Positions 553-20,581 of a stretch of DNA of 21,496 nt are shown piece by piece. The stretch's first letter is position 1. Every line of letters starts with the position of its first letter. Location of the stretch: IMG/VR virus record IMGVR_UViG_3300012931_000078, positions 1-21,496 of that record. One strand, given 5' to 3'. Source of the DNA: a virus. Under the pieces are notes generated by a model that did not search any database, was not told where the DNA came from, and was given only the letters and a program-made list of their open reading frames with translations. The position numbers and the translations under genes were made by a program.

Positions 553-1449
553 TTATTGAAAAAATTGTTCCGACTTGCATCGACAATTGCAAATTTGATC
601 GGGTCCGGCTCCTAGAGAATCATCCTTAGGAAACATCATTAAATCTTCACCAACTTGAAATGGATCATCAATTCCTACTACTTGGCTATCGGCTTCGACA
701 TGGTCCAAACGCGTATGATCGTCAAGAACTGCAACCCACATTTTTCCAGTTTTCATATCATTAATATTTTTACCATCAAATACAGCATTCATTGCGCTTA
801 GCGTATCATATTCTAAATTTTTTCCGTTTTCCACTGCTGTTTCTGTTTCGGTTGTTGATATATTTACTGATCTACCACCAAATATTTGTCCTAAATGATC
901 GCTAGCTAACTTTGCAATGTTTTCATTAGTTGCATCAATATCCATTTTCGCTGCTCTTACATAAGCTTCTTTTGTAACATAATCAAAATTATCCCGCGTC
1001 GTATCTGTTATTGAATGACTATACATATGCGCGCGATTAGCTGCATAACCACGGATATTAGCATCAAGCTTTCTTTGTATGCCGGCTGCGTTGGTATCAG
1101 GCTCTCCCAAATTGTCTCTTATATGCGTAGAAAACTTGCTTGCTACAGTTATGTGCTGATCGTTTAATAAACTTTCTAACTCCTTCTGAAACTCATCTAA
1201 TGAAGGAGCTGAGCCATGCTTGGCATAATGATCTTTAAATTCTTTTTGAATATCCGAAAAATAATCTTTTATTTGCTTGGTAAAAGGAGTTTCCAATTTC
1301 AATCCAGTAGCATAATCGTTCATGGCTTGCTTGTATAAATTTTTTAATTGAGTTTCAGATAAAGCAATAGTTGTAGCTGTAGCAGCAACTTCTTCAGGTC
1401 GATTTTCTTTTGCTATATCTGCTTCGTTATCGTTATTATTATCTGCCAT
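553..1449 (-). CDS. Phage minor head / head morphogenesis protein (SPP1 gp7 / Mu gpF family)
   Basis: Predicted minor capsid protein of 298 aa, of the family that sits at or near the portal and helps DNA delivery or prohead assembly. The family signature is in the last third: WVAVLDDHTRLDH (aspartate/arginine/histidine motif near residues 240-252), then LMMFPKDDSLGAG and a closing NCRC (288-291). This matches the usual D-x-R-TR-x-x-H...P-x-D...NCRC pattern. The first 30 residues are acidic and low-complexity; the middle is helical. Start ATG at 1449, 12 nt after the portal stop, with no strong Shine-Dalgarno. Immediately downstream of portal is the canonical position for this gene. Length is normal to slightly short. 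Confidence 0.85.
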   Translation of the reverse strand: MADNNNDNEADIAKENRPEEVAATATTIALSETQLKNLYKQAMNDYATGLKLETPFTKQIKDYFSDIQKEFKDHYAKHGSAPSLDEFQKELESLLNDQHITVASKFSTHIRDNLGEPDTNAAGIQRKLDANIRGYAANRAHMYSHSITDTTRDNFDYVTKEAYVRAAKMDIDATNENIAKLASDHLGQIFGGRSVNISTTETETAVENGKNLEYDTLSAMNAVFDGKNINDMKTGKMWVAVLDDHTRLDHVEADSQVVGIDDPFQVGEDLMMFPKDDSLGAGPDQICNCRCKSEQFFQ

Positions 1450-1461
1450 AATGTTTTTGTT

Positions 1462-3069
1462 CTAATATACTTTTCTAACTTTAGAAGGATAGTTTTCTTC
1501 TGCTAAATCATTAATATCTTCATCACTAAAACGCTGTGATCCGTCTTTATTAACTTGACGCTTCAATCTTTCAATAAACTTTTCTTTACTCGCTTTTGTT
1601 CTATCGCCATCAATATCATTTTCATTTGGTTTTACATCTTCTGTTGAAGGTTCTTTTGGGTTCATGCTTTCAGTTATATTAGTTTGCTGTGTTGTTGTAA
1701 CTGGTTTAGCAACCGAGGGTTTAACCGTGTCCAAACTATCTTCTGTGGTAAATTCGTCTTCTGGGTCTGTAGCTATCGGTAACGCCCCCATTGTTCCATA
1801 AATATATTGACCACCTTCAATCGGCTTATATTCATTTAATTTACGCATTTCATTAATGGTATAAATAGCCGTATTTTTCATTAAATTTGTTTGTTCATTA
1901 CGTTCCGGCTCTAATTGCGGTATGTCTTTTGGATTAAACGTAATTATATAGCGATGGTTTTGATTATCATATCTAGGCATTAAAAAATTAGTTAACTCTT
2001 GGTCTATTCTTTTACGCATCGGAATAACAGCATTTTTATAAAAAGCATATTGAGAACTTTCGTAATTAGAAAAAGTCATACTTTCTGAATTAATTAATGG
2101 CAATGGTATTTTTAATGCTTTGTAAATTGCTTCTGCTGTAAATTTTGCTGTAGCACTATAGTCCATATCGCGCGTTGTTTTCATAATATCTTCAAAATTC
2201 ATGTTATTATCTAATAATACATTTCTTCCTGCATTATTGGAGCCTGACATTGCATTATTTAATTGAGCTTCTATCTGTTGCCTCATTTTATCAGTTAATA
2301 TTCCATTGTATTTCCATAATCCACTAAGTTTTGAGGCTCTTTGCAATACTGATAAATTAAATTTCGCACTCTCAACATATTGACGCATTTCATAAAATAT
2401 AGCATTCAAAGGAGATAAACCATAAGCCATATTTGAACTAACTAAAGGATTAAATGTTCTAATGTGATAAAGTTCATTAAAGTCGTTAGCATAATATCTA
2501 AATCTTTCACGGCCGTAATTTTCAACTATCATTCGATTATATGTATCAGCAATACCTAATAATCTTGTTGTAAATGTTTGTGCATAGCCGTCAATACCTG
2601 TAATAATCGTAGTGGTAACGGATGGCATAACTCTGATCGTTTGTGGCGGTCTTTCTACGAAACCTAATCCAGTAATATAAACGTTTCCAGTTCCATCAAA
2701 CCATTGCACTATTGCCTCCATGAATTCGCCAAAAGTTTGATCAGCATTTGGGTAGGAAAGTAATTCAAGAACAGGATGATCATCGACAAAATCACCTGTT
2801 TCAGTATCTAATACTTTTGGCAAAATAGATGCTACTGCTTTTGCGTGCATATCAAGTGCAGTAGCCACCGGTGCGCATTCGATCATGTATAAAACTGATT
2901 CATTGGCGTAAAGAATCGGTTTATCGCCAGAAGGAAAAATTGATAAACCAAGTTGATCGTTTACAAATGCATCTTTTGTTTCTATGCCATTATTTCTATT
3001 AAAACCAAATGCTTTTATTACTTTTGAAGTCCATGTAGTATCATTTGATTTTTTTCTATTGTTAGCCAT
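1462..3069 (-). CDS. Phage portal protein (HK97-type family)
   Basis: 535-aa portal protein, which forms the dodecameric ring at the head vertex through which DNA is packaged. Family features in order are HPVLELL (98-104), GNVYI (128-132, the strand preceding the stem), the hallmark YGLSPL (216-221), a long helical region around 225-300, and PLPLINSESMTFSNYESS near residues 324-341 in the clip/wing part. The last ~90 residues (from about 445) are a low-complexity Thr/Asp/Glu/Lys tail typical of portals. The start is ATG at 3069, 6 nt after the terminase stop. No clear Shine-Dalgarno is visible, so translation probably depends on coupling to terminase. Confidence 0.9.
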   Translation of the reverse strand: MANNRKKSNDTTWTSKVIKAFGFNRNNGIETKDAFVNDQLGLSIFPSGDKPILYANESVLYMIECAPVATALDMHAKAVASILPKVLDTETGDFVDDHPVLELLSYPNADQTFGEFMEAIVQWFDGTGNVYITGLGFVERPPQTIRVMPSVTTTIITGIDGYAQTFTTRLLGIADTYNRMIVENYGRERFRYYANDFNELYHIRTFNPLVSSNMAYGLSPLNAIFYEMRQYVESAKFNLSVLQRASKLSGLWKYNGILTDKMRQQIEAQLNNAMSGSNNAGRNVLLDNNMNFEDIMKTTRDMDYSATAKFTAEAIYKALKIPLPLINSESMTFSNYESSQYAFYKNAVIPMRKRIDQELTNFLMPRYDNQNHRYIITFNPKDIPQLEPERNEQTNLMKNTAIYTINEMRKLNEYKPIEGGQYIYGTMGALPIATDPEDEFTTEDSLDTVKPSVAKPVTTTQQTNITESMNPKEPSTEDVKPNENDIDGDRTKASKEKFIERLKRQVNKDGSQRFSDEDINDLAEENYPSKVRKVY

Positions 3070-3075
3070 AATTTT

Positions 3076-4494
3076 TTAAAAAAATGAAATTGGGTTAGGT
3101 GATATAGAACTCAAGTATCGTAGGGCTTGCGTTACAGTATCGACAATATCGTCATGTTTACCTTTTGGGAAAGATGACATTTCTTGTATAAAATCATACA
3201 TCAAATTATGATTTTCAGGCAAATATACTCTACCAGTGTTTATAATATCACTAATCATATGAACTCTCACGGTTTTATCACCTTCAGGTTTACATGGATG
3301 CATTGGAATTAAATGTCCCAATTCTTGTATAAGTGGAATACCAGAAGCTGCATCTTCTACTAAAACAAACATAGCTTCATATTTATCAAAAATACTTTTT
3401 ATAATAGTTTTAAATACTGGATATTTAACTTTATCACGCCACATGTCTCTAAGATAATAATTAGTTCCAATGACGCCCCAGATTGTGCAAACACTATAAT
3501 CATTTGCCTCTTTCTCCTTCCAAGCTCCATCTACCGACATTATTGTATAATCAAATTCTTTTACAATTTCTTGATTATAATAATTAAATTTACTAATATC
3601 TATCAAATTTCCGTCGTTTAAAACTGGGCTTTGTTGATAAAGAGCCTGAAACATTGAAGGTTCATTTTTCTTAAGCTCAAGCAATTCTTCTAAAGAATGT
3701 AATTCAGGGCAAAGTGGTTCACCAATTTCACGCCCTAGCGGGTCATTTTCCTCAGCTAACGCCGGCAAGCAAATAACTTCCCACTTTCCGCCATCTTCTA
3801 TGCGCCCATCGCGTTCTAATAAACGCCCAGATAAATCATCACAATGCCAACGGGTTTGAATTATTATGTGAGAAGTGTTTTTTTGTTGGCGTGTGCAAAT
3901 ATCATAAACATAAGCGTTATATGTACTATCTCTCACCGCAATACTAAAAGCATCTCGATATCCTTTTACAGGATCATCAATAAATATTTTATCTGCTGGT
4001 GTTCCTGTAATTCCTGATTGCATACCAAAAGCTTTTAAAAATCCTCGCGCGCTTGTTTCCCAATTATAAGCTCTTTGTTTTCCCGAAAAGTTCTTAAAGT
4101 TTGTATCTTCTAATATTCTATGTATTCCACTTGAAAAATCACCAGCAAAATCTTTACCGTATGCTCCTACGATAATTCTTTCGCTAGGATTTCTTTGATA
4201 TAAATAAGCAGGAAATCCCTTCGTTACGGATGAAGATTTTAAATGCTGAGGTGGAAGCCAATACATTTGATATCTTTTTTCACCATTTGCAATAGGTTGC
4301 AATCTGTTAGTCATATATTTTACGTGTTTAAAATCCCACGTATAATATGGAATTGCTCTCGGCAACCATTCCTGAAAACTACCCAGCGACTTCCTTTTCC
4401 TCTCCCTCAATTCCAGTATCGCTGCTGCTTGTCTCATCTCCGTTGGGATTTGATATATTGGCTTCTCCGCGTACAATTCTTTCCAATTGTTCAT
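3076..4494 (-). CDS. terL: Terminase large subunit (packaging ATPase-nuclease)
   Basis: 472-aa packaging motor. The N-terminal ATPase carries a divergent Walker A-like PPQHLKSS (81-88), Walker B KIFIDD (169-174) and the QTRW coupling motif (213-216). The C-terminal RNase H-like nuclease shows MSVDGA (D322), VLVEDAASG (E380/D381) and KHDDIVD (D448, D449, D452), the expected acidic metal-binding set. The gene overlaps the end of the small-subunit gene by 116 nt, which is unusually long. A second ATG (residue 20, near 4437) would reduce the overlap to 59 nt, but its GGAG lies too close to serve well, so the long form is kept. Portal follows 6 nt downstream. It appears full length and intact. Confidence 0.92.
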   Translation of the reverse strand: MNNWKELYAEKPIYQIPTEMRQAAAILELRERKRKSLGSFQEWLPRAIPYYTWDFKHVKYMTNRLQPIANGEKRYQMYWLPPQHLKSSSVTKGFPAYLYQRNPSERIIVGAYGKDFAGDFSSGIHRILEDTNFKNFSGKQRAYNWETSARGFLKAFGMQSGITGTPADKIFIDDPVKGYRDAFSIAVRDSTYNAYVYDICTRQQKNTSHIIIQTRWHCDDLSGRLLERDGRIEDGGKWEVICLPALAEENDPLGREIGEPLCPELHSLEELLELKKNEPSMFQALYQQSPVLNDGNLIDISKFNYYNQEIVKEFDYTIMSVDGAWKEKEANDYSVCTIWGVIGTNYYLRDMWRDKVKYPVFKTIIKSIFDKYEAMFVLVEDAASGIPLIQELGHLIPMHPCKPEGDKTVRVHMISDIINTGRVYLPENHNLMYDFIQEMSSFPKGKHDDIVDTVTQALRYLSSISPNPISFF

Positions 4495-4897
4495 CTGATA
4501 ATTGCTCTAATGTTAAATTTGATATATTGCCGCTATGTTCAATATTTATTTGTTCTGAATAACCGCGTTTTTTGCATTTGGTTTTAAGCATAAATATTGT
4601 CATAGGAGTATTTTTTTCTTGAACCTGTTGATACGCGCTAGACTCTATAAAATCCATTAGTAATTCGTTTACATATTGATATGCTTTTTCAAATTCTTCT
4701 GATTTGTTTCGCCATTGGTGAATTGCTTGAGGTGTTATATTATATGCTTTGCAGGCTTTCGAAAGTACGCCCATGTACTTGTAATAATAAAATAAGAATC
4801 TAATTTGATCATCTGACAATGATGTATTGTTAGTTTTAAATTCAGAAATAAATTTTTTTATTTCCTTTTCTTTTTCTGGGTCTATTTTTGTTAACAT
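4379..4897 (-). CDS. terS: Terminase small subunit (DNA-recognition protein)
   Basis: 172-aa protein placed directly before terL, the classic position for the subunit that recognises the packaging site. It has an N-terminal helix-turn-helix around residues 45-70 (SKACKAYNITPQAIHQWRNK). A helical oligomerisation region follows, then an acidic, low-complexity C-terminus. I chose ATG at 4897. A frame extension to a TTG at 4933 exists, but that TTG is part of a perfect TTGACA promoter-like hexamer and has no ribosome binding site. The C-terminal 38 codons are read in a different frame as the start of terL. Confidence 0.8.
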   Translation of the reverse strand: MLTKIDPEKEKEIKKFISEFKTNNTSLSDDQIRFLFYYYKYMGVLSKACKAYNITPQAIHQWRNKSEEFEKAYQYVNELLMDFIESSAYQQVQEKNTPMTIFMLKTKCKKRGYSEQINIEHSGNISNLTLEQLSDEQLERIVRGEANISNPNGDETSSSDTGIEGEEKEVAG

Positions 4898-4902
4898 ATT
4901 GA

Positions 4903-4933
4903 AACATATGCCATAATTAACCCAAAATGTCAA
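4903..4933 (-). promoter_or_regulatory. Possible promoter of the packaging operon
   Basis: The minus strand reads TTGACA (4933-4928), a perfect -35. The best -10, TATGTT at 4908-4903, is 19 bp away, longer than ideal, and would make the terS message nearly leaderless. The hexamer sits just upstream of the terS ATG, but in such AT-rich DNA other promoters in 4934-5000 are possible. Confidence 0.3.
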
Positions 4934-5109: not shown

Positions 5110-5403
5110 ATGGAAAACACAATAGCACACAAAATATTACAACAATTAGGCGGTTACAAATTCATAGCAATGACTGGAGCAAAAAAATTTGTAAGCGATG
5201 CAAACTCAGTAAGATTTCAATTACCAAAAGTATTATTTGACAAAATAATAAAAATCACATTAAACGCAAATGATTTATACGATATTGAATTTGCAAAAAT
5301 TGAAAAACTTCAATACAAGATTTTTAATATTGTTACAAATATTAGTTGTGACAAATTAATGTCAACGATAGAACAACAAACAAAGTTAAGATTTCATCTT
5401 TAA
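5110..5403 (+). CDS. Small conserved phage/plasmid-type protein of unknown function
   Basis: 97 aa. The segment QQLGGYKFIAMTGAKKF (residues 11-27), followed by a pattern of the type ITLNANDLYDIEF (residues 50-62), resembles a family of small proteins common in phages and mobile elements. It has no assigned function that I know of. No membrane segment or metal motif is visible. It is preceded by GGAGA with good spacing and a promoter at 5041-5068. First gene of a three- or four-gene rightward group placed between two leftward operons. Confidence 0.75.
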   Translation: MENTIAHKILQQLGGYKFIAMTGAKKFVSDANSVRFQLPKVLFDKIIKITLNANDLYDIEFAKIEKLQYKIFNIVTNISCDKLMSTIEQQTKLRFHL

Positions 5404-6099: not shown

Positions 6100-6663
6100 C
6101 TAATCTTTATCGTTAATACAATAATCTATTATGATATTTGACATTTCTTCTTTTGAATGCTTTTTAAGCCATTCTTTTACCATATCAACATTATCTTTAT
6201 GAAATTGAAAAGTAATGCTTTCCTCATTTGATTCTTCGTTTATAAAATTATTAACTCCAACCCCCATGTTTGATATATCAACATCAAAATTTTTAAGTTC
6301 ATAATCTTCAAAACCAACATCATATAACATGTCATTATCAAAAAATTCAAGTAATGATTCTGTATTCCATTCTCCAGCAATATTTTTATTTAAACGTAGA
6401 TTTAGTTTTTGAAATTGTTTTTCAGTTAGTTTTTTATCTGGCAAATAGCAATCAACTTCATCAATGTTTAATTCTTCTAATATTTTTTTCCTACCATGAC
6501 CGCCACATATTGTATAATCAGAATTTATTACTAAAGGTTCTGCCAACCCAAACTCTTTAATTGAATCTTTCAGTTGTTTCAAGCCTTTTTCAGTTAAATT
6601 TCTAGGGTTTTTTTCCCATTCAATAAGATTTGATACTTTTATTTTTTCTAAGTGCCATTTCAT
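6100..6663 (-). CDS. ParB/Srx-fold (ParB-like nuclease domain) phage protein
   Basis: 187 aa. The N-terminal half is a ParB N-terminal-like domain: NPRNLTEKGLKQLKDSI (19-35), FGLAEPLVIN (38-47) and GGHGRKKIL (54-62), the GxHR-type phosphate-binding box. Stand-alone versions occur in many phages beside terminase or DNA methyltransferase genes; ParB itself is a CTP-dependent clamp and some relatives nick DNA. There is no C-terminal methyltransferase or HTH domain, and the last ~60 residues are acidic and helical. It is the last gene of the minus-strand operon that starts with ferritin, 3 nt after the previous stop. A role in DNA transactions is inferred; the activity is unknown. Confidence 0.75.
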   Translation of the reverse strand: MKWHLEKIKVSNLIEWEKNPRNLTEKGLKQLKDSIKEFGLAEPLVINSDYTICGGHGRKKILEELNIDEVDCYLPDKKLTEKQFQKLNLRLNKNIAGEWNTESLLEFFDNDMLYDVGFEDYELKNFDVDISNMGVGVNNFINEESNEESITFQFHKDNVDMVKEWLKKHSKEEMSNIIIDYCINDKD

Positions 6664-6666
6664 AAT

Positions 6667-7014
6667 TTATAATTGACTATCCCCTGTTCCAGTTAAAAGC
6701 CAATCATAAAATTCTTTATGGTTAAAAATATAATAATACATTGCTTTTAAATTATCAAAATTATTTTCCATTTTCTCTGCATACACATGGGCTTGCCAGT
6801 AACTAACTCCCTCTTTCATCTTTTTAGATTCGGCTATTTCATGGATTATAGTATGTACTTTTAAGGTAAAATCAGAAGTTTTATTTAATAAGATTTCATT
6901 TGGAGCAATCTGGCGATCAAAACCTAACGCCTGTGCAGCCTCATAATTAAAACCGTCATAACCTTCGAGGTAATCGTCTGAAACTTGGCGTATTGTGTAT
7001 TCTTGAAAATTCAT
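6667..7014 (-). CDS. HExxE zincin-like metallopeptidase-type protein
   Basis: 115 aa. The core is HTIIHEIAESKKM (54-66), with H58-E59-x-x-E62, followed by YWQAHVYAEKMEN (72-84) containing H76 and E80. Phage and bacterial proteins with this HE[IL]xE...M...Y..AH..A...E pattern look like minimal zinc-peptidase folds in which the second histidine of HExxH is a glutamate. Catalysis is not established. The gene starts 1 nt after the stop of the XRE-HTH gene, the arrangement expected of repressor/anti-repressor protease pairs such as ImmR/ImmA, but this protein is much smaller than ImmA and the parallel is inference. Confidence 0.6.
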   Translation of the reverse strand: MNFQEYTIRQVSDDYLEGYDGFNYEAAQALGFDRQIAPNEILLNKTSDFTLKVHTIIHEIAESKKMKEGVSYWQAHVYAEKMENNFDNLKAMYYYIFNHKEFYDWLLTGTGDSQL

Positions 7015-7015
7015 A

Positions 7016-7243
7016 TTAATTATTCACTTTTTCTATAAAAAACAAATCATCAAAATTGCATCCCGGTAAAGCATTTATAATTTTTTCCCTTAATTTTGGC
7101 GAAGGATGTTTTGTTCCTTCCATTAATTGCGACATATAACCGCTGCTAATTTCTAATTTATGGGCAAACGAATTTTGAGATTTATTTGATCTTATAAATA
7201 TTTCATTAAATTTTTCAGTATTCAAAAATACTTTAAACTTCAT
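7016..7243 (-). CDS. XRE/Cro-type helix-turn-helix regulator
   Basis: 75-aa single-domain DNA-binding protein. The HTH spans about residues 11-57: NKSQNSFAHKLEISSGYMSQ shows the conserved turn, and LMEGTKHPSPKLREKI is the typical loop and helix following the recognition helix. Its ATG at 7243 overlaps the ferritin stop by one base (TAATG), so translation is coupled. Probably a repressor or modulator of its own operon or of the repeat-rich region upstream of the ferritin promoter (inference). Confidence 0.8.
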   Translation of the reverse strand: MKFKVFLNTEKFNEIFIRSNKSQNSFAHKLEISSGYMSQLMEGTKHPSPKLREKIINALPGCNFDDLFFIEKVNN

Positions 7244-7767
7244 TAATCACCAAAATTTAATTTGATTGTATCGTTTTTTATTTCTCCTAACTCATCTTCA
7301 TATTCATTCAACGCACCGACATCTTCGCCAATTGCCGTTAACTTCGCGATAATCTCAATGAGTTTGGCTTCTGAATCCAATTGCTCGTCAATAAACCAAG
7401 ATAAAAAGTTATGCGTAGCAAAATCTCCGGCGGCCATGGCAAGTTTCATAATGTTGTTTATGGAAGCGGTTACAAATTGTTCAAGCTCTAAAGCTGCTTT
7501 AAATGCGTTTAGAGGCGAAAATTGTTCTAGGCTAGACAACTCAGGGGGTGGCACCATTTCAACGCCAGGAAGGCTGTTAAGTTTGAGAATATACGTACCA
7601 AACTTGCAAGCATGGTTTCGTTCGTCATCAGATTGTTTTTTAAACCAATCGGCAAATCCATTAAAAAACTTACTTTCACACAAATTAGCCAATTGTAGAT
7701 AACAATTAGAAGCATATAGCTCATAATTGTATTGTTTATTTAAAGCCGTGATGATACTTGTATCCAT
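7243..7767 (-). CDS. ftnA-like: Non-haem ferritin (FtnA-like)
   Basis: 174-aa four-helix-bundle ferritin. Ferroxidase ligands are all present: E16 (YELYAS), E49 and H52 (DDERNH), E96 (LELEQ) and Q129 (DEQLDSE). These align with E. coli FtnA E17, E50, H53, E94 and Q127. Third-site residues look altered: FtnA E49 corresponds to D48 and E130 to S132. It would oxidise and store iron as a 24-mer in the cytoplasm (family knowledge). Start ATG at 7767 has GAGGA just upstream. A longer frame from a TTG at 7797 is rejected because the promoter at 7805-7833 would start transcription there. The gene is visibly richer in G+C than its neighbours, suggesting acquisition from a host. First gene of the operon ferritin - HTH - peptidase-like - ParB-like. 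Confidence 0.9.
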   Translation of the reverse strand: MDTSIITALNKQYNYELYASNCYLQLANLCESKFFNGFADWFKKQSDDERNHACKFGTYILKLNSLPGVEMVPPPELSSLEQFSPLNAFKAALELEQFVTASINNIMKLAMAAGDFATHNFLSWFIDEQLDSEAKLIEIIAKLTAIGEDVGALNEYEDELGEIKNDTIKLNFGD

Positions 7768-7804
7768 AAATCCTCGCGCAGAAAGGCATAAAGTCAATTT
7801 TTAA

Positions 7805-7833
7805 ATTATAACACAATGAATTTTAGGCGACAA
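7805..7833 (-). promoter_or_regulatory. Extended -10 promoter of the ferritin-HTH-peptidase-parB operon
   Basis: On the minus strand TTGTCG (7833-7828, 4/6) is separated by exactly 17 bp from a perfect TATAAT (7810-7805) preceded by TGT, an extended -10. Transcription would begin near 7798, giving a ~30-nt leader with GAGGA before the ferritin ATG. No convincing Fur box is seen. Confidence 0.65.
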
Positions 7834-7868
7834 TATCATTTAATTTAAACCCGTCGAAATCAACATAT

Positions 7869-7942
7869 ATATCAAATCATAAAAATACACTTATCGTGAT
7901 TTGAAGCCAATCGATGTGGGCAAAACATATCAAATCCCACAT
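7869..7942. repeat. Direct and inverted repeats upstream of the ferritin promoter
   Basis: ATATCAAATC occurs at 7869-7878 and 7927-7936. TCAAATCA (7872-7879) pairs with TGATTTGA (7897-7904), and ATGTGGG (7914-7920) pairs with CCCACAT (7936-7942). The two hairpins and the shared repeat suggest operator sites or a structured RNA close to the ferritin promoter. Confidence 0.5.
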
Positions 7943-8095
7943 ATTTTTAATAATGACTTGATTTAATAAAAGTATCGGTTATCAGAAAATGCCGAACAAC
8001 TAATTTTACAATTGGCACATTGTCTTTTCCGAGGTTTTAAAAATCGAAACTTTGGGATCAAAATTTTTCTTTTATATATTTTCTTTTTATGTTTG

Positions 8096-8123
8096 TAAGT
8101 AATCATTGTTAAGTAATCATTGT
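8096..8123 (+). repeat. Perfect 14-bp tandem direct repeat
   Basis: TAAGTAATCATTGT occurs twice with no gap (8096-8109 and 8110-8123), ten bases before the 24-bp array. It is probably a second protein-binding site class at the same control region or origin. Confidence 0.75.
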
Positions 8124-8132
8124 AATAGAATC

Positions 8133-8320
8133 TAACTTAAAAATGTTAAGTTACAGTAACTCACAAATGTTAATCTACTGTAACTTAACAATGTTAATCT
8201 ACTGTAACTTAAGGTTGTTAAGTTCCCGTAAGTAGTTAACATATTGATTTAATTGATAAAGGCCTCTCATGGGAACTTAAGGTTGTTAAGTTACAGTAAC
8301 TTAAGGTTGTTAAGTTCCCA
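8133..8320. repeat. Array of six 24-bp palindromic units (4 + 2), iteron-like
   Basis: Units at 8133-8156, 8157-8180, 8181-8204 and 8205-8228 abut exactly. After a 44-bp gap two more follow at 8273-8296 and 8297-8320. The unit core is the dyad AACTTAA-N5-TTAAGTT. Units 4, 5 and 6 share the perfect 19-mer AACTTAAGGTTGTTAAGTT; units 1-3 are variants with AAATG or CAATG in the centre and some TTAATCT arms. GTTCCC closes unit 4 and GGGAAC opens unit 5, so the two blocks face each other across the gap. Degenerate pieces recur at 8452-8475 (GTAACTTAACTTATG...) and 8562-8572 (AAGTTACAGTA). Such regular palindromic repeats beside an AT-rich stretch fit an iteron-type origin or a cooperative repressor operator. 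They are not CRISPR, since there are no spacers. Confidence 0.85.
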
Positions 8321-8376
8321 CGAAGATGTGATGCATTATTTCAATTTATAATTTATTTTTTAAAATGTCATACGTT

Positions 8377-8386
8377 GTTACGTAAC
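8377..8386. repeat. Perfect 10-bp palindrome GTTACGTAAC
   Basis: GTTACGTAAC is self-complementary. It is embedded between ATTTCAATTT (near 8338-8347) and AAATTGAAAA, which can also pair with each other, so a larger cruciform is possible just downstream of the 24-bp array. Confidence 0.45.
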
Positions 8387-8428
8387 AAATTGAAAAATAA
8401 ATAAATTTATTGGGAAAATACAATTGCG

Positions 8429-8451
8429 GGAGATTACATTTATTCATCTCC
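8429..8451. repeat. Hairpin GGAGAT/ATCTCC
   Basis: A six-base perfect inverted repeat with an 11-nt loop in the AT-rich tract downstream of the array. No T-run follows, so it is not a standard terminator. It is followed directly by a degenerate copy of the 24-bp unit. Confidence 0.3.
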
Positions 8452-8569
8452 GTAACTTAACTTATGAATGTTATATACATTATGTATTTTAAATATATGC
8501 AACTTATTGATATATATAAAATTAATTGATTTATAAGAAAATTAAATGAATTTTTACGAAAAAGTTACA

Positions 8570-8604
8570 GTACATAACCTAAGAAAAAATAGGGGGTTAT
8601 ATAC
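8570..8604. repeat. Imperfect 10-bp inverted repeat GTACATAACC/GGTTATATAC
   Basis: One mismatch in ten pairs, with a 15-nt A-rich loop. It overlaps the AAGTTACAGTA fragment of the 24-bp unit at its left arm. Possible operator or structured RNA. Confidence 0.35.
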
Positions 8605-8741
8605 TGAGACATTAAGTGCAAAATATTAATAAAAATTGGATATTAAAACATGGGGAATCATTTCGTTGAAGCCAACAAAATGATTAATATTTTTATAAAC
8701 TTATTAAACAATTTGGATAAAAATTATATGTCAATATTTCC

Positions 8742-8811
8742 GCTAGCATAAAAAGTGGCGCTGCTAGCATAGTCGTTTTTTGTAATTAATAAAATTCACC
8801 TGCAAGGTGAA
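8742..8811. repeat. GCTAGCATA direct repeat and adjacent TTCACCT hairpin
   Basis: GCTAGCATA occurs at 8742-8750 and 8763-8771, exactly 21 bp (two helical turns) apart. Downstream, TTCACCT (8795-8801) and AGGTGAA (8805-8811) form a perfect 7-bp hairpin with a 3-nt loop. GAAAATG-T-CATTTTC, a 15-bp palindrome, overlaps its right side. Confidence 0.45.
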
Positions 8812-8845
8812 AATGTCATTTTCAATACAGACGTGAGTTTTTTTG

Positions 8846-8888
8846 GGGGTGATATTGGGGTGATAATTAACACGGTTATTGCGTTAAT
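8846..8888. repeat. GGGGTGATA repeat spaced one helical turn, plus ATTAAC/GTTAAT dyad
   Basis: GGGGTGATA at 8846-8854 and 8857-8865 have an 11-bp period. ATTAAC (8866-8871) and GTTAAT (8883-8888) follow as an inverted repeat. The segment 8881-8895 resembles 9991-10005 (13 of 15 bases), upstream of the rightward promoter. Confidence 0.45.
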
Positions 8889-9040
8889 GATCAAACAATT
8901 TATATTAAAAAATGCTTCTCTCTGAAAATGACAGGCAAGTAATAGAGTGTTGCACTATTTCAAGCATATTGTTAAGTGTACTGTATTTTTTATCACAAAT
9001 TGTTCAAGTATATATAAAATGATAATAATAATTAGACATT

Positions 9041-9083
9041 AAAACAGGTGGAACGGTTAGGTGGGTTATCGAAAAACAGGTGG
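9041..9083. repeat. AAAACAGGTGG repeat, period 32 bp
   Basis: AAAACAGGTGG occurs at 9041-9051 and 9073-9083. A third GGTGG lies between them at 9060-9064. These G-rich strand motifs stand out in AT-rich DNA and may be protein-binding sites. Confidence 0.4.
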
Positions 9084-9196
9084 GTAGGTTTTTAATTTAT
9101 TTCCTTCTTGCATAAAAATAAAATCATGATAATATGATTATGTGTTTTTTATTTTTATTGTCTTTTCTCTTTACGCATTGTTCGTTGTTCTAAAAG

Positions 9197-9223
9197 AGCC
9201 GCCCTAAGCAAGCGGCTTTTTTT
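9197..9223 (+). terminator. Rho-independent terminator
   Basis: Stem AGCCGC/GCGGCT (9197-9202, 9212-9217) with loop CCTAAGCAA and a T-run to 9223. On the plus strand no gene precedes it. A weak promoter-like pair, TTGCAT (9108-9113) and TAATAT (9130-9135) with 16-bp spacing, could produce an ~80-nt RNA ending here. On the minus strand the stem is followed by TCTTTT and could end transcription of the gene at 9381-9902. Confidence 0.65.
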
Positions 9224-9283
9224 ATTGTTATTATATAATGTGGGGATTAGGTGAAAATATAAGAAATATTTTCTGGCTGATAT

Positions 9284-9295
9284 AGTTGCGCAACT
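9284..9295. repeat. Perfect 12-bp palindrome AGTTGCGCAACT
   Basis: Self-complementary dodecamer between the terminator and the tRNA-like segment, followed by AT-rich palindromic TAATTA stretches. A possible recombination or regulator site. Confidence 0.45.
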
Positions 9296-9333
9296 AATTA
9301 ATGAGCAAATTAATTAAATGTTGGCAAAGATGC

Positions 9334-9380
9334 GTTGCTGATAAACAACTGAAAGATGTTCGATTCATCTCCCTGCGCCA
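9334..9380 (+). other. tRNA 3'-half-like sequence, candidate attachment (att) core
   Basis: AGATG (9354-9358), TTCGATT (9359-9365) and CATCT (9366-9370) make a canonical T-arm with the GTTCGATTC consensus. CCCTGCG and CCA (ending 9380) follow. Upstream, GTTG/CAAC (9334-9349) forms an anticodon-arm-like hairpin at about the right distance. No matching 5' acceptor arm (CGCAGGG type) or D-arm is present, and the CCA is one base out of register. It is therefore not a functional tRNA. Integrating phages often carry a tRNA 3' end as attP, which is the inference; no integrase is in the window. Confidence 0.3.
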
Positions 9381-9902
9381 TCAAAAAACCTTAAAATTAA
9401 GTTTAATTAATTCGATATCAATAATTTTCAATTGTGATTTAAGATATTCAAAATATCTGTAACGCAATAAATTAACATCTCGGATTTGTGTGATTTTATT
9501 TCTTGAATTTCTGCCTTTCCTGATTATTCCTTTTCGATAAACCATTTTAACATCCATGTGCATCAAACGCGCTACAAAGCGCAAGGATAAATTATATTTG
9601 TTTAGCAACGCTGTCCATATATCTGTTAAATCGTATTCTTTAATGTGCGAATGCGTATATTCTGATTGAATTTCTTGCACCATTTCCCATAAAAATATTT
9701 TATGTCCTGATAAAAAATTATACAAAATAACTTTTGAAGCATAAGTTTTTTTATGTTGATTATCTTTTTTTAATAGATTACAAATAGCGGTCATGCTAAA
9801 ATTTAAAACATTGGCTACGTAAGTCTTAGAAAGCTTATGGTTTCTTATAAAATCTTCGAATACTATGCTGTAAATAGACTTTTCCCGACAATAGTTAGCC
9901 AT
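9381..9902 (-). CDS. Putative DNA-binding protein with two HTH-like motifs
   Basis: 173 aa, strongly basic. HTH-like segments are near residues 15-46 (FEDFIRNHKLSKTYVANVLN, then FSMTAICNLLKK) and 94-124 (LLNKYNLSLRFVARLMHM, then DVKMVYRK). Both resemble phage repressor/activator helices but neither is a textbook match. The C-terminus is Lys/Arg-rich. Start ATG at 9900-9902; no clear Shine-Dalgarno is seen. It stands alone, divergent from the long rightward operon whose promoter is at 10228-10256 and next to the repeat-rich region. It is a candidate regulator of that operon or binder of the 24-bp repeats (inference). Confidence 0.6.
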   Translation of the reverse strand: MANYCREKSIYSIVFEDFIRNHKLSKTYVANVLNFSMTAICNLLKKDNQHKKTYASKVILYNFLSGHKIFLWEMVQEIQSEYTHSHIKEYDLTDIWTALLNKYNLSLRFVARLMHMDVKMVYRKGIIRKGRNSRNKITQIRDVNLLRYRYFEYLKSQLKIIDIELIKLNFKVF

Positions 9903-17501: not shown

Positions 17502-17849
17502 ATGAATAATAATCAAGAACTATTAAATCAATTAAAAATTGCGGCTCAACGGTGTGGATTTCTTGATATAGATATTTCTTGTTTACTGAATGAATCTAAA
17601 TATTGGATAAGTCAGGTTTTCAGCGGAAAAATAAACCCAAGAAAAAACATGATTAAAACAATTGAATTATTAATAAATTTTTTAAATAGTTTAGCAAAAA
17701 GAAATTACGTATTTAAAAAATCCATGTATGAATCGACTTTTGAGAGTTCAAAAAGGAGGAAATTATTTGCTCTTCAAATAAAAGATGAGTTTATCAAATA
17801 TGTTAATTACTTGGAAAAACGAGATAATGAACGAGCAAAAGAGCAATGA
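17502..17849 (+). CDS. HTH (XRE-like) DNA-binding protein
   Basis: 115 aa. HTH near residues 22-46: DIDISCLLNESKYWISQVFS, then GKINPRKNMIKTIELL, with the SGKxxPR loop characteristic of XRE/lambda-repressor-like domains. A basic helical C-terminus follows. It directly precedes, and overlaps by 23 nt, the helicase-like gene. It could regulate the replication module or the repeat-rich region (inference). Confidence 0.6.
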   Translation: MNNNQELLNQLKIAAQRCGFLDIDISCLLNESKYWISQVFSGKINPRKNMIKTIELLINFLNSLAKRNYVFKKSMYESTFESSKRRKLFALQIKDEFIKYVNYLEKRDNERAKEQ

Positions 17850-19014
17850 TGTTATTAATAATTTAGGCTTTCAAGAAAACGGAGGCTTTATTTATAATAA
17901 AAACGGCGATGGATTTATGCAAGATGCGGAACCAGTTCATTTAAATATAGCCTCTGAGATAAATGAACAGATAAAAGATTTCCAAGCCAAAGGAAATTTA
18001 AGTAAATGGATGCAGATAATAAATAAATACGGCAATATTGAACAATCGTTTCCTTATCTTTTTATTTTATTGTGTTTCGTTGGTGCGCCTTTATTGCGTT
18101 ATATTAATGAGAAAAATGTTGTTTTAACAATCAATAATAATTTGATTGCAAAAATAGGGATGAGTATTTGGCATAACGTAACCAATAATGTAGAAATACA
18201 GCCCTTAAAGCCCACAGAGGCGATTAAAAACATGCCTTTGTATTTGCATTGCTCGAATAAAATAAAGCAACAGAAGCTAATACAGTTAATGTTTAACTAT
18301 GATTCGCAATTATTATTTATAGATAAAACGTTAATCAATCAAGATTTGATGCTTAATTTAACAAAGGCGAGACGCAATAAGATATTGAATATTGAATTAC
18401 CCAAATTAGATAACGCTAACCAGATAAAGATAGAAAAAATATTAAAAGAAAACTATGGAGTATTAGCCGCTAAATTAGCTTTTGCGTTCATGAAGCGCAA
18501 TAGCAAAGTAAAAATATGGTTAAATAAATATTGTGCGCAAATTAAAACACAAATAAAAAGAAAACATCACAATTGGGCATTATGTGGCGCCATAGCGTTT
18601 ACTGCGGCAGAAATAATTAATCAATTAAAACTATTTAACATTGATTTAAAATGTCTTTATGATTGGTTTATTTCGATATTGCAACATCAGGAGATGTTAT
18701 TAAAAACTAGACCTAAAATAAAAAAAGTTTTTAAAAATATAAATGAATTAGCTACAACTTTACGCTTATGGATGGGGGAAGAAAGAATAATGACAACAAG
18801 AAGACATAAATCAGCTAAAGAAGCATACGCCAAAATAATGAGGGAACGTGAACATAAACTTTATATGTATGTTAAACCAGAGGCTTTACAATTATTTTTA
18901 AAACAATATTACGATATCCCATTCAATGTTATCGTAAAAAAATTAAAATTGAATAATAAGGCGCAAAAGGGAATTAACGGGCGAAATCATCTATGTTATA
19001 GGTTTTTGATTTAA
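17827..19014 (+). CDS. Degenerate DUF927/phage helicase-like protein lacking a P-loop
   Basis: 395 aa. The order of blocks resembles phage DUF927-type ATPase/helicase C-terminal regions. LGFQENGGFIYN (13-24) comes first. W..I....G.....PYLFILLCFVGAPLL follows (61-90), with 'APLL' as a landmark, then VVLTI (98-102) directly followed by IGMSIWHNV (110-118). The Walker A (SGTGKTT) normally found here is absent. FIDK (164-167) replaces the expected DE of Walker B. RRNKILNIELPKLD (182-195), KENYGVLAAKLAFAF (207-221) and HNWALCGAIAFTAAEI (248-263) match the NYG-x-AG and R-x-W-x-x-x-A-x-x-x-x-A regions. It is thus probably ATPase-dead and internally shortened. Start chosen at ATG 17827; an upstream in-frame ATG at 17785 is possible. 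By-eye assignment. Confidence 0.5.
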   Translation: MNEQKSNDVINNLGFQENGGFIYNKNGDGFMQDAEPVHLNIASEINEQIKDFQAKGNLSKWMQIINKYGNIEQSFPYLFILLCFVGAPLLRYINEKNVVLTINNNLIAKIGMSIWHNVTNNVEIQPLKPTEAIKNMPLYLHCSNKIKQQKLIQLMFNYDSQLLFIDKTLINQDLMLNLTKARRNKILNIELPKLDNANQIKIEKILKENYGVLAAKLAFAFMKRNSKVKIWLNKYCAQIKTQIKRKHHNWALCGAIAFTAAEIINQLKLFNIDLKCLYDWFISILQHQEMLLKTRPKIKKVFKNINELATTLRLWMGEERIMTTRRHKSAKEAYAKIMREREHKLYMYVKPEALQLFLKQYYDIPFNVIVKKLKLNNKAQKGINGRNHLCYRFLI

Positions 19015-20116: not shown

Positions 20117-20581
20117 ATGAAAAATAACACAATTATAGAAAATATATCACAAAAAAATTATCTTGAATTAGCTTTAAAAATATCATTAGAAACACATGCT
20201 GATAAAAAAGATTTAGGTGGTAATCCATATATATTACACCCCTTGAGAATAATGAATAAATTTGAAGATGAAGAACATCAAATTGTAGCATTACTACATG
20301 ATGTAATAGAAGATGGAAATGTAACTATTGAATATTTAATAAACAAAGGATTTAATCAAAATATAATTGACGCAATTAAATGCTTAACTAGAGGAGCGGA
20401 AATATACGATATTTATATTAAAAAAATAGCTCACAATAATAAAATAGCAAGAGATGTGAAAATAGAGGATTTGAAAGATAATCTAAATTCTGCAAGATTA
20501 AATGAAGTTACAGAAATAGATAGAAAAAGAATTAATAAATATATACGTTCATTAAAAATACTTTCTGAAAAAAACACATGA
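20117..20581 (+). CDS. HD-domain hydrolase, RelA/SpoT hydrolase (Mesh1)-like
   Basis: 154 aa, single HD domain. Motifs in order are H27 (LETHADKKDLGGNPYILHPL), H41 (ILHPLRIM), the HD pair H61-D62 with E65-D66 (ALLHDVIEDG), and a late VKIEDLKDNLN with D121-N122. This is the arrangement of (p)ppGpp 3'-pyrophosphohydrolases of the Mesh1/SpoT hydrolase type, and of phage HD phosphohydrolases using Mn2+. There is no synthetase domain. Substrate is not proven: an alarmone or another nucleotide. It is shorter than Mesh1 (about 179 aa) but contains all metal ligands. Overlaps the next gene by ATGA. RtcB lies 0.4 kb downstream. Confidence 0.75.
   Translation: MKNNTIIENISQKNYLELALKISLETHADKKDLGGNPYILHPLRIMNKFEDEEHQIVALLHDVIEDGNVTIEYLINKGFNQNIIDAIKCLTRGAEIYDIYIKKIAHNNKIARDVKIEDLKDNLNSARLNEVTEIDRKRINKYIRSLKILSEKNT

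Follow-up and report, generated by a model that had tools for sequence, protein, structure and literature searches.

Described origins of phage replication provide the closest points of reference for the locus investigated in this study. In phage lambda, the origin contains palindromic iterons located beside an AT-rich tract (PMC3349717). A non-coding location is known from the Streptococcus phage Sfi21, whose origin extends over 302 bp (PMC6356513), and from the PLE satellite, where the origin is equally non-coding and resides away from repA, and where iterons of the RepA_N type constitute semi-palindromic direct repeats (PMC7145576). A layout resembling such origins is found in the DNA analysed here (the window), which comprises an entire IMG/VR viral contig of 21,496 bp from a tailed phage whose genome is incomplete. 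It contains an array of phased repeats in non-coding DNA, which we interpret, with a probability of about one half, as the iterons of a phage replication origin that belongs to an already known general type.

The array is built from six 24-bp units that start at positions 8134, 8158, 8182, 8206, 8274 and 8298, with start-to-start distances of 24, 24, 24, 68 and 24 bp, and whose common plan places a five-base centre between the arms AACTTAA and TTAAGTT, followed by a five-base spacer. The number of units and their pitch are as stated in the preliminary description, but its claim that each unit carries an exact AACTTAA-N5-TTAAGTT dyad does not hold, as perfect dyads are restricted to four of the six and the units at 8158 and 8182 are degenerate. 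On the plus strand, unit 1 (8134..8152) forms a perfect dyad (AACTTAA-AAATG-TTAAGTT) with ACAGT as spacer. It is succeeded by the degenerate unit 2 (8158..8176, AACTCAC-AAATG-TTAATCT) and unit 3 (8182..8200, AACTTAA-CAATG-TTAATCT), both with the spacer ACTGT, and by unit 4 (8206..8224, AACTTAA-GGTTG-TTAAGTT), which is again perfect and followed by CCC at the end of the block. The second block on the same strand contains perfect dyads in unit 5 (8274..8292), with GGG before it at the edge of the block and the spacer ACAGT after it, and in unit 6 (8298..8316), which terminates the block with CCC. From unit 1 to unit 6, the arms pair at 7, 3, 5, 7, 7 and 7 of seven positions and the centres read AAATG, AAATG, CAATG, GGTTG, GGTTG and GGTTG. 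Since the centre invariably ends with TG, all six units face one way, and this single orientation defines the array as a set of semi-palindromic direct repeats. Between the blocks lie the 44 bp that had been described initially (8230..8273), with an AT fraction of about 0.7 and without a repeat unit, at whose flanks GTTCCC and GGGAAC mirror each other. This mirror symmetry, which was also correctly recognised, is a consequence of the replacement of the within-block spacers ACAGT or ACTGT by CCC or GGG at three of the four block ends.

The array is genuine, and several statistics place it far outside the range expected by chance. Among the tandem arrays of the window it ranks first (score 118 compared to 63 for the next), its 19-mer core is matched 10 times at up to three mismatches where 1.6 matches are expected, a number reached in none of 100 shuffles, and the best identity at a lag of 72 bp is 0.79, a value that did not exceed 0.63 when the intergenic region was shuffled 500 times. 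In contrast, the degenerate copies that had been proposed at 8452 and 8562 are marginal and near chance level, with the core at three mismatches or fewer arising in 80 of 200 shuffles of the region 8325-9380 and AGTTACNGTAACT at two mismatches or fewer in 9 of 200. The array also folds strongly as a single strand (z = -7.0 as DNA and -5.9 as RNA), as would be expected if the repeats formed functional hairpins, either in RNA or in single-stranded DNA, in the manner of an attenuator, a cruciform or a satellite-like element, rather than as protein sites. However, palindromic repeats necessarily fold, the stems of two units are badly broken despite an exact pitch, and a search of Rfam gave no match, which makes such a role quite improbable. 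A search for tRNAs was equally negative. We regard the array as an ordered cis-acting element of the protein-binding type, whose function we infer.

No other non-coding gap of the contig is as long as the one that contains the array (7768..9380, 1,613 bp). A recoded or decayed gene in this gap was rejected, as it lacks a long frame under the standard code and under TAG-sense and TGA-sense readings. Further repeats are found in the same gap, including a perfect tandem duplication of TAAGTAATCATTGT directly to the left of the array (8096-8123), two 38-bp direct repeats of 82% identity located 396 bp apart (8620-8657 and 9016-9053) and GTGATGCATTATTTCAA-like repeats at 8328 and 8947. By eye, a hairpin resembling an intrinsic terminator (AGCCGC..GCGGCT, followed by seven T) is recognised at 9197-9223 on the plus strand, pointing rightward; no gene precedes it in the gap and it possibly ends an untranslated transcript from the array region. 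The gap is flanked by a leftward gene cluster and by a leftward orphan gene (9381-9902), and on a larger scale the array region sits between this leftward cluster and a rightward one, in which small genes extend from 10.2 kb to the right contig end. The leftward cluster is headed by a ferritin gene (7243-7767, minus strand; Pfam Ferritin, E 5e-37), which is accompanied by a small HTH protein matching PHROG transcriptional repressors (7016-7243), a protein of unknown function (6667-7014) and a ParB-like protein (6100-6663). Also leftward are the genes for the small and large (TerL) terminase subunits, the portal and a Mu F-like head protein (553-4933). The rightward module includes a RelA/SpoT-type HD-domain protein (20117-20581, plus strand) and an RtcB-like RNA ligase truncated by the contig end (21024-21494, plus strand). 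A 394-residue protein (17830-19014, plus strand) with a weak match to DUF927 and, by eye, no P-loop motif may be a degenerate helicase-like protein. Most proteins of this fragment are orphans. AlphaFold predictions for the proteins at 9381 and 17830 (pLDDT of 44 and 39) were too poor for a structure search, and a sequence search of the 9381 and 17502 proteins against solved structures returned nothing meaningful.

The repeats combine two alternating dyads, the described core and a second one, TTAAGTTAC-W-GTAACTTAA, which is centred on the spacer, with half-site centres located 14 and 10 bp apart. The latter, with its 9-1-9 organisation, is reminiscent of boxes of the DtxR/IdeR family. In mycobacteria, IdeR controls the ferritin gene bfrB. 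A host metalloregulator might bind this box upstream of the phage ferritin gene, whose start at 7767 is the start codon nearest to the array, at a distance of about 365 bp, and which runs in the correct direction. Such control would tie phage gene expression to the iron state of the host. The spacer dyad is perfect only at 8295 and preserved at 7 of 9 positions at three other places, whereas at the four block ends it is broken, with 4, 4, 1 and 1 of 9 positions retained. Because both blocks start and finish with complete cores while the terminal spacer dyads are broken, it is the core rather than the spacer dyad that constitutes the repeated unit. Since the array also lies upstream of the predicted promoter (7833-7805) at a distance of about 300 bp, we consider binding of a metalloregulator to be as improbable as a role as hairpins, and long-range, metal-responsive control of the ferritin operon by a DtxR-type protein of the host as slightly less probable still.

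A more serious alternative is offered by an operator array, in which a repressor or Cro-like HTH protein would bind the units cooperatively as dimers. The candidates, which are of HTH type or HTH-like, are encoded at 7016-7243, 9381-9902 and 17502-17849 and would silence or activate promoters on either side, possibly with the two blocks looped together. The match of the 7016 protein to repressors and the location of the array between a leftward and a rightward cluster are both in line with this view, and so are the lambda operators OL and OR, whose dyad sites are found at pitches of 24 and 20 bp and of 23 and 24 bp. As the lambda iterons show a similar pitch, this parameter alone cannot separate an origin from an operator. 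The lambda operators, however, contain three sites each, which overlap with promoters and are less alike, whereas the array has six units and no match to the scanned promoter type within 8134-8316, so that none of its dyads overlaps with such a promoter; the region as a whole shows no excess of promoter-like sites (20 found, 21.6 expected). The distance to the nearest start codon argues against a simple operator, and the divergent intergenic region between 9902 and 10290, the expected place of an immunity switch, is over 1.5 kb away and does not contain any unit. We view an operator array as the main, though less probable, alternative to an origin.

Both an origin and an operator had been proposed in the preliminary description and survive, whereas its third proposal, a partition site, is weak. 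Repeat arrays are typical of centromeres, and a ParB- or ParR/TubR-like protein acting on the array could maintain the phage genome as a plasmid prophage. The candidate at 6100-6663 contains only a domain of the ParB_N type, which is below the Pfam cut-off, and its PHROG families are a mixture of ParB-like, nuclease and methyltransferase proteins. As no partner ATPase resembling ParA, ParM or TubZ was found among the searched proteins, either beside the array or elsewhere, a centromere appears unlikely, though less so than hairpins or metal control.

Searches for kin with TerL, ferritin, the 9381 protein and the ParB-like protein did not reveal a close relative of the phage. By BLAST, the best match of TerL reaches about 37% identity across most of the protein, with 39% in a multiple alignment being the highest among those inspected; ferritin has relatives of only 34-40% identity, in two genomes, and the 9381 protein none. 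At an E-value of 1e-60, TerL was not detected in 385 genomes belonging to the same class as one of the genomes with a ferritin relative. A small protein of PHROG 9437 (5110-5403, plus strand) has relatives in named phages that mostly infect proteobacteria, which provides a weak hint at this host group. The phage lineage is unplaced. A BLAST search of the array region against phages and plasmids returned nothing, and its patterns gave only single chance matches in IMG/VR and no second array, with the matching contigs showing either a hit in coding sequence (L006) or one copy (L100). Likewise, a 16-base core was found in 119 contigs, and those that were fetched showed no further unit close by.

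Among 223 other viral contigs that had been fetched (2.2 Mb in total), a single one showed a clear phased array of at least four palindromic units (L221:6321-6412), in a strict search that detects only very regular arrays, since it passed over those of a lambda segment, r1t and TP901-1. This second array resembles that of the window in its four phased palindromic units at a pitch of 23 bp, but it is unrelated in sequence and located within a gene whose product carries Phg_2220_C and DUF6291 domains, directly upstream of a gene encoding an IstB/DnaC-like ATPase. A phage replication-protein gene beside an ATPase gene is the usual site of an internal phage origin, and this array, on an otherwise unannotated contig, is likely such an origin. 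The contig had been retrieved by its ParB_N protein, which is 31% identical to that of the window.

Collectively, the numerous, regular and co-oriented units, their non-coding setting, the separation from any gene start, an AT-rich flank and the absence of promoter-like sites in the array or of an excess in the region favour an origin, as do the parallel in the second contig, the published non-coding phage origins and the palindromic iterons of lambda. Six near-identical repeats at a pitch of 24 bp are what would be expected of an iteron origin. In such a mechanism, a phage-encoded initiator would bind the six units as dimers and wrap or bend the DNA and open neighbouring AT-rich DNA for the loading of the replicative helicase. 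The opening would occur on the side of 8338-8590 and less likely in the 44-bp gap. The proximal part of this flank (8338..8425, 84% AT), which contains the palindrome TTGTTACGTAACAA at 8375-8388, is a candidate accessory region, and the low-stability stretch at 8471..8590 a candidate unwinding region, although the latter is only suggestive. The AT-rich tract noted initially is thus present at 8471-8590, but it ranks fourth to sixth lowest in stability in the window, and low-stability DNA near the array is not exceptional for the contig. The initiator may be encoded outside the 21.5-kb fragment or be among its orphan DNA-binding proteins, and none was recognised among the searched proteins of this partial genome, nor was a helicase loader or a polymerase. 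An exact DnaA box (TTATNCACA) was not found. The GC skew, which had been suggested as a means to map initiation, reverses its sign near 8 kb without yielding a clean signal of replication, and we rejected it as evidence since it tracks gene direction, with positive values in rightward genes at 5.1-6.0 kb and negative ones in the leftward gene at 9.4-9.9 kb. If the array is an origin, it would supply an unplaced phage lineage with a clear start site open to testing and with a consensus for the binding sites, and would be a further example of an iteron origin in non-coding DNA that has no recognisable initiator alongside.

The relationship to known origins can be described by shared and distinct features. 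In the Sfi21 origin (34487-34784), which is non-coding as is the array, inverted blocks rich in GTTAC/GTAAC surround AT-rich DNA, and it is the strongest cluster of these pentamers in that genome (11 compared to 0.7 expected). The same pentamers are concentrated around the array, where 8126-8600 accounts for 10 out of 35 occurrences in the whole window, and this shared clustering, seen post hoc and in repeat units that comprise numerous short words, lends weak support to an origin. The Sfi21 pentamer pairs, however, have a pitch of 8 bp instead of 24-bp units, and that origin adjoins a D5-type helicase gene, which has no counterpart at the array. The RepA_N iterons of PLE and staphylococcal plasmids are semi-palindromic direct repeats as in the array, but the centres of units 4-6 are not poly-A, and the proteins scanned in this incomplete contig include no Pfam match to a RepA_N initiator. 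The annotated O-binding iterons of lambda (39034-39118) show pitches of 20, 24 and 23 bp and arms TCCCTC and GAGGGA around an asymmetric A-rich centre. They comprise four 18-bp units inside the initiator gene O, whereas the array contains six units of different sequence in a 4+2 arrangement in non-coding DNA, and no homologue of lambda O or P was seen in the window. Common to both are dyad units with an asymmetric centre, arranged in one orientation at a pitch of 20-24 bp, with AT-rich DNA as neighbour.
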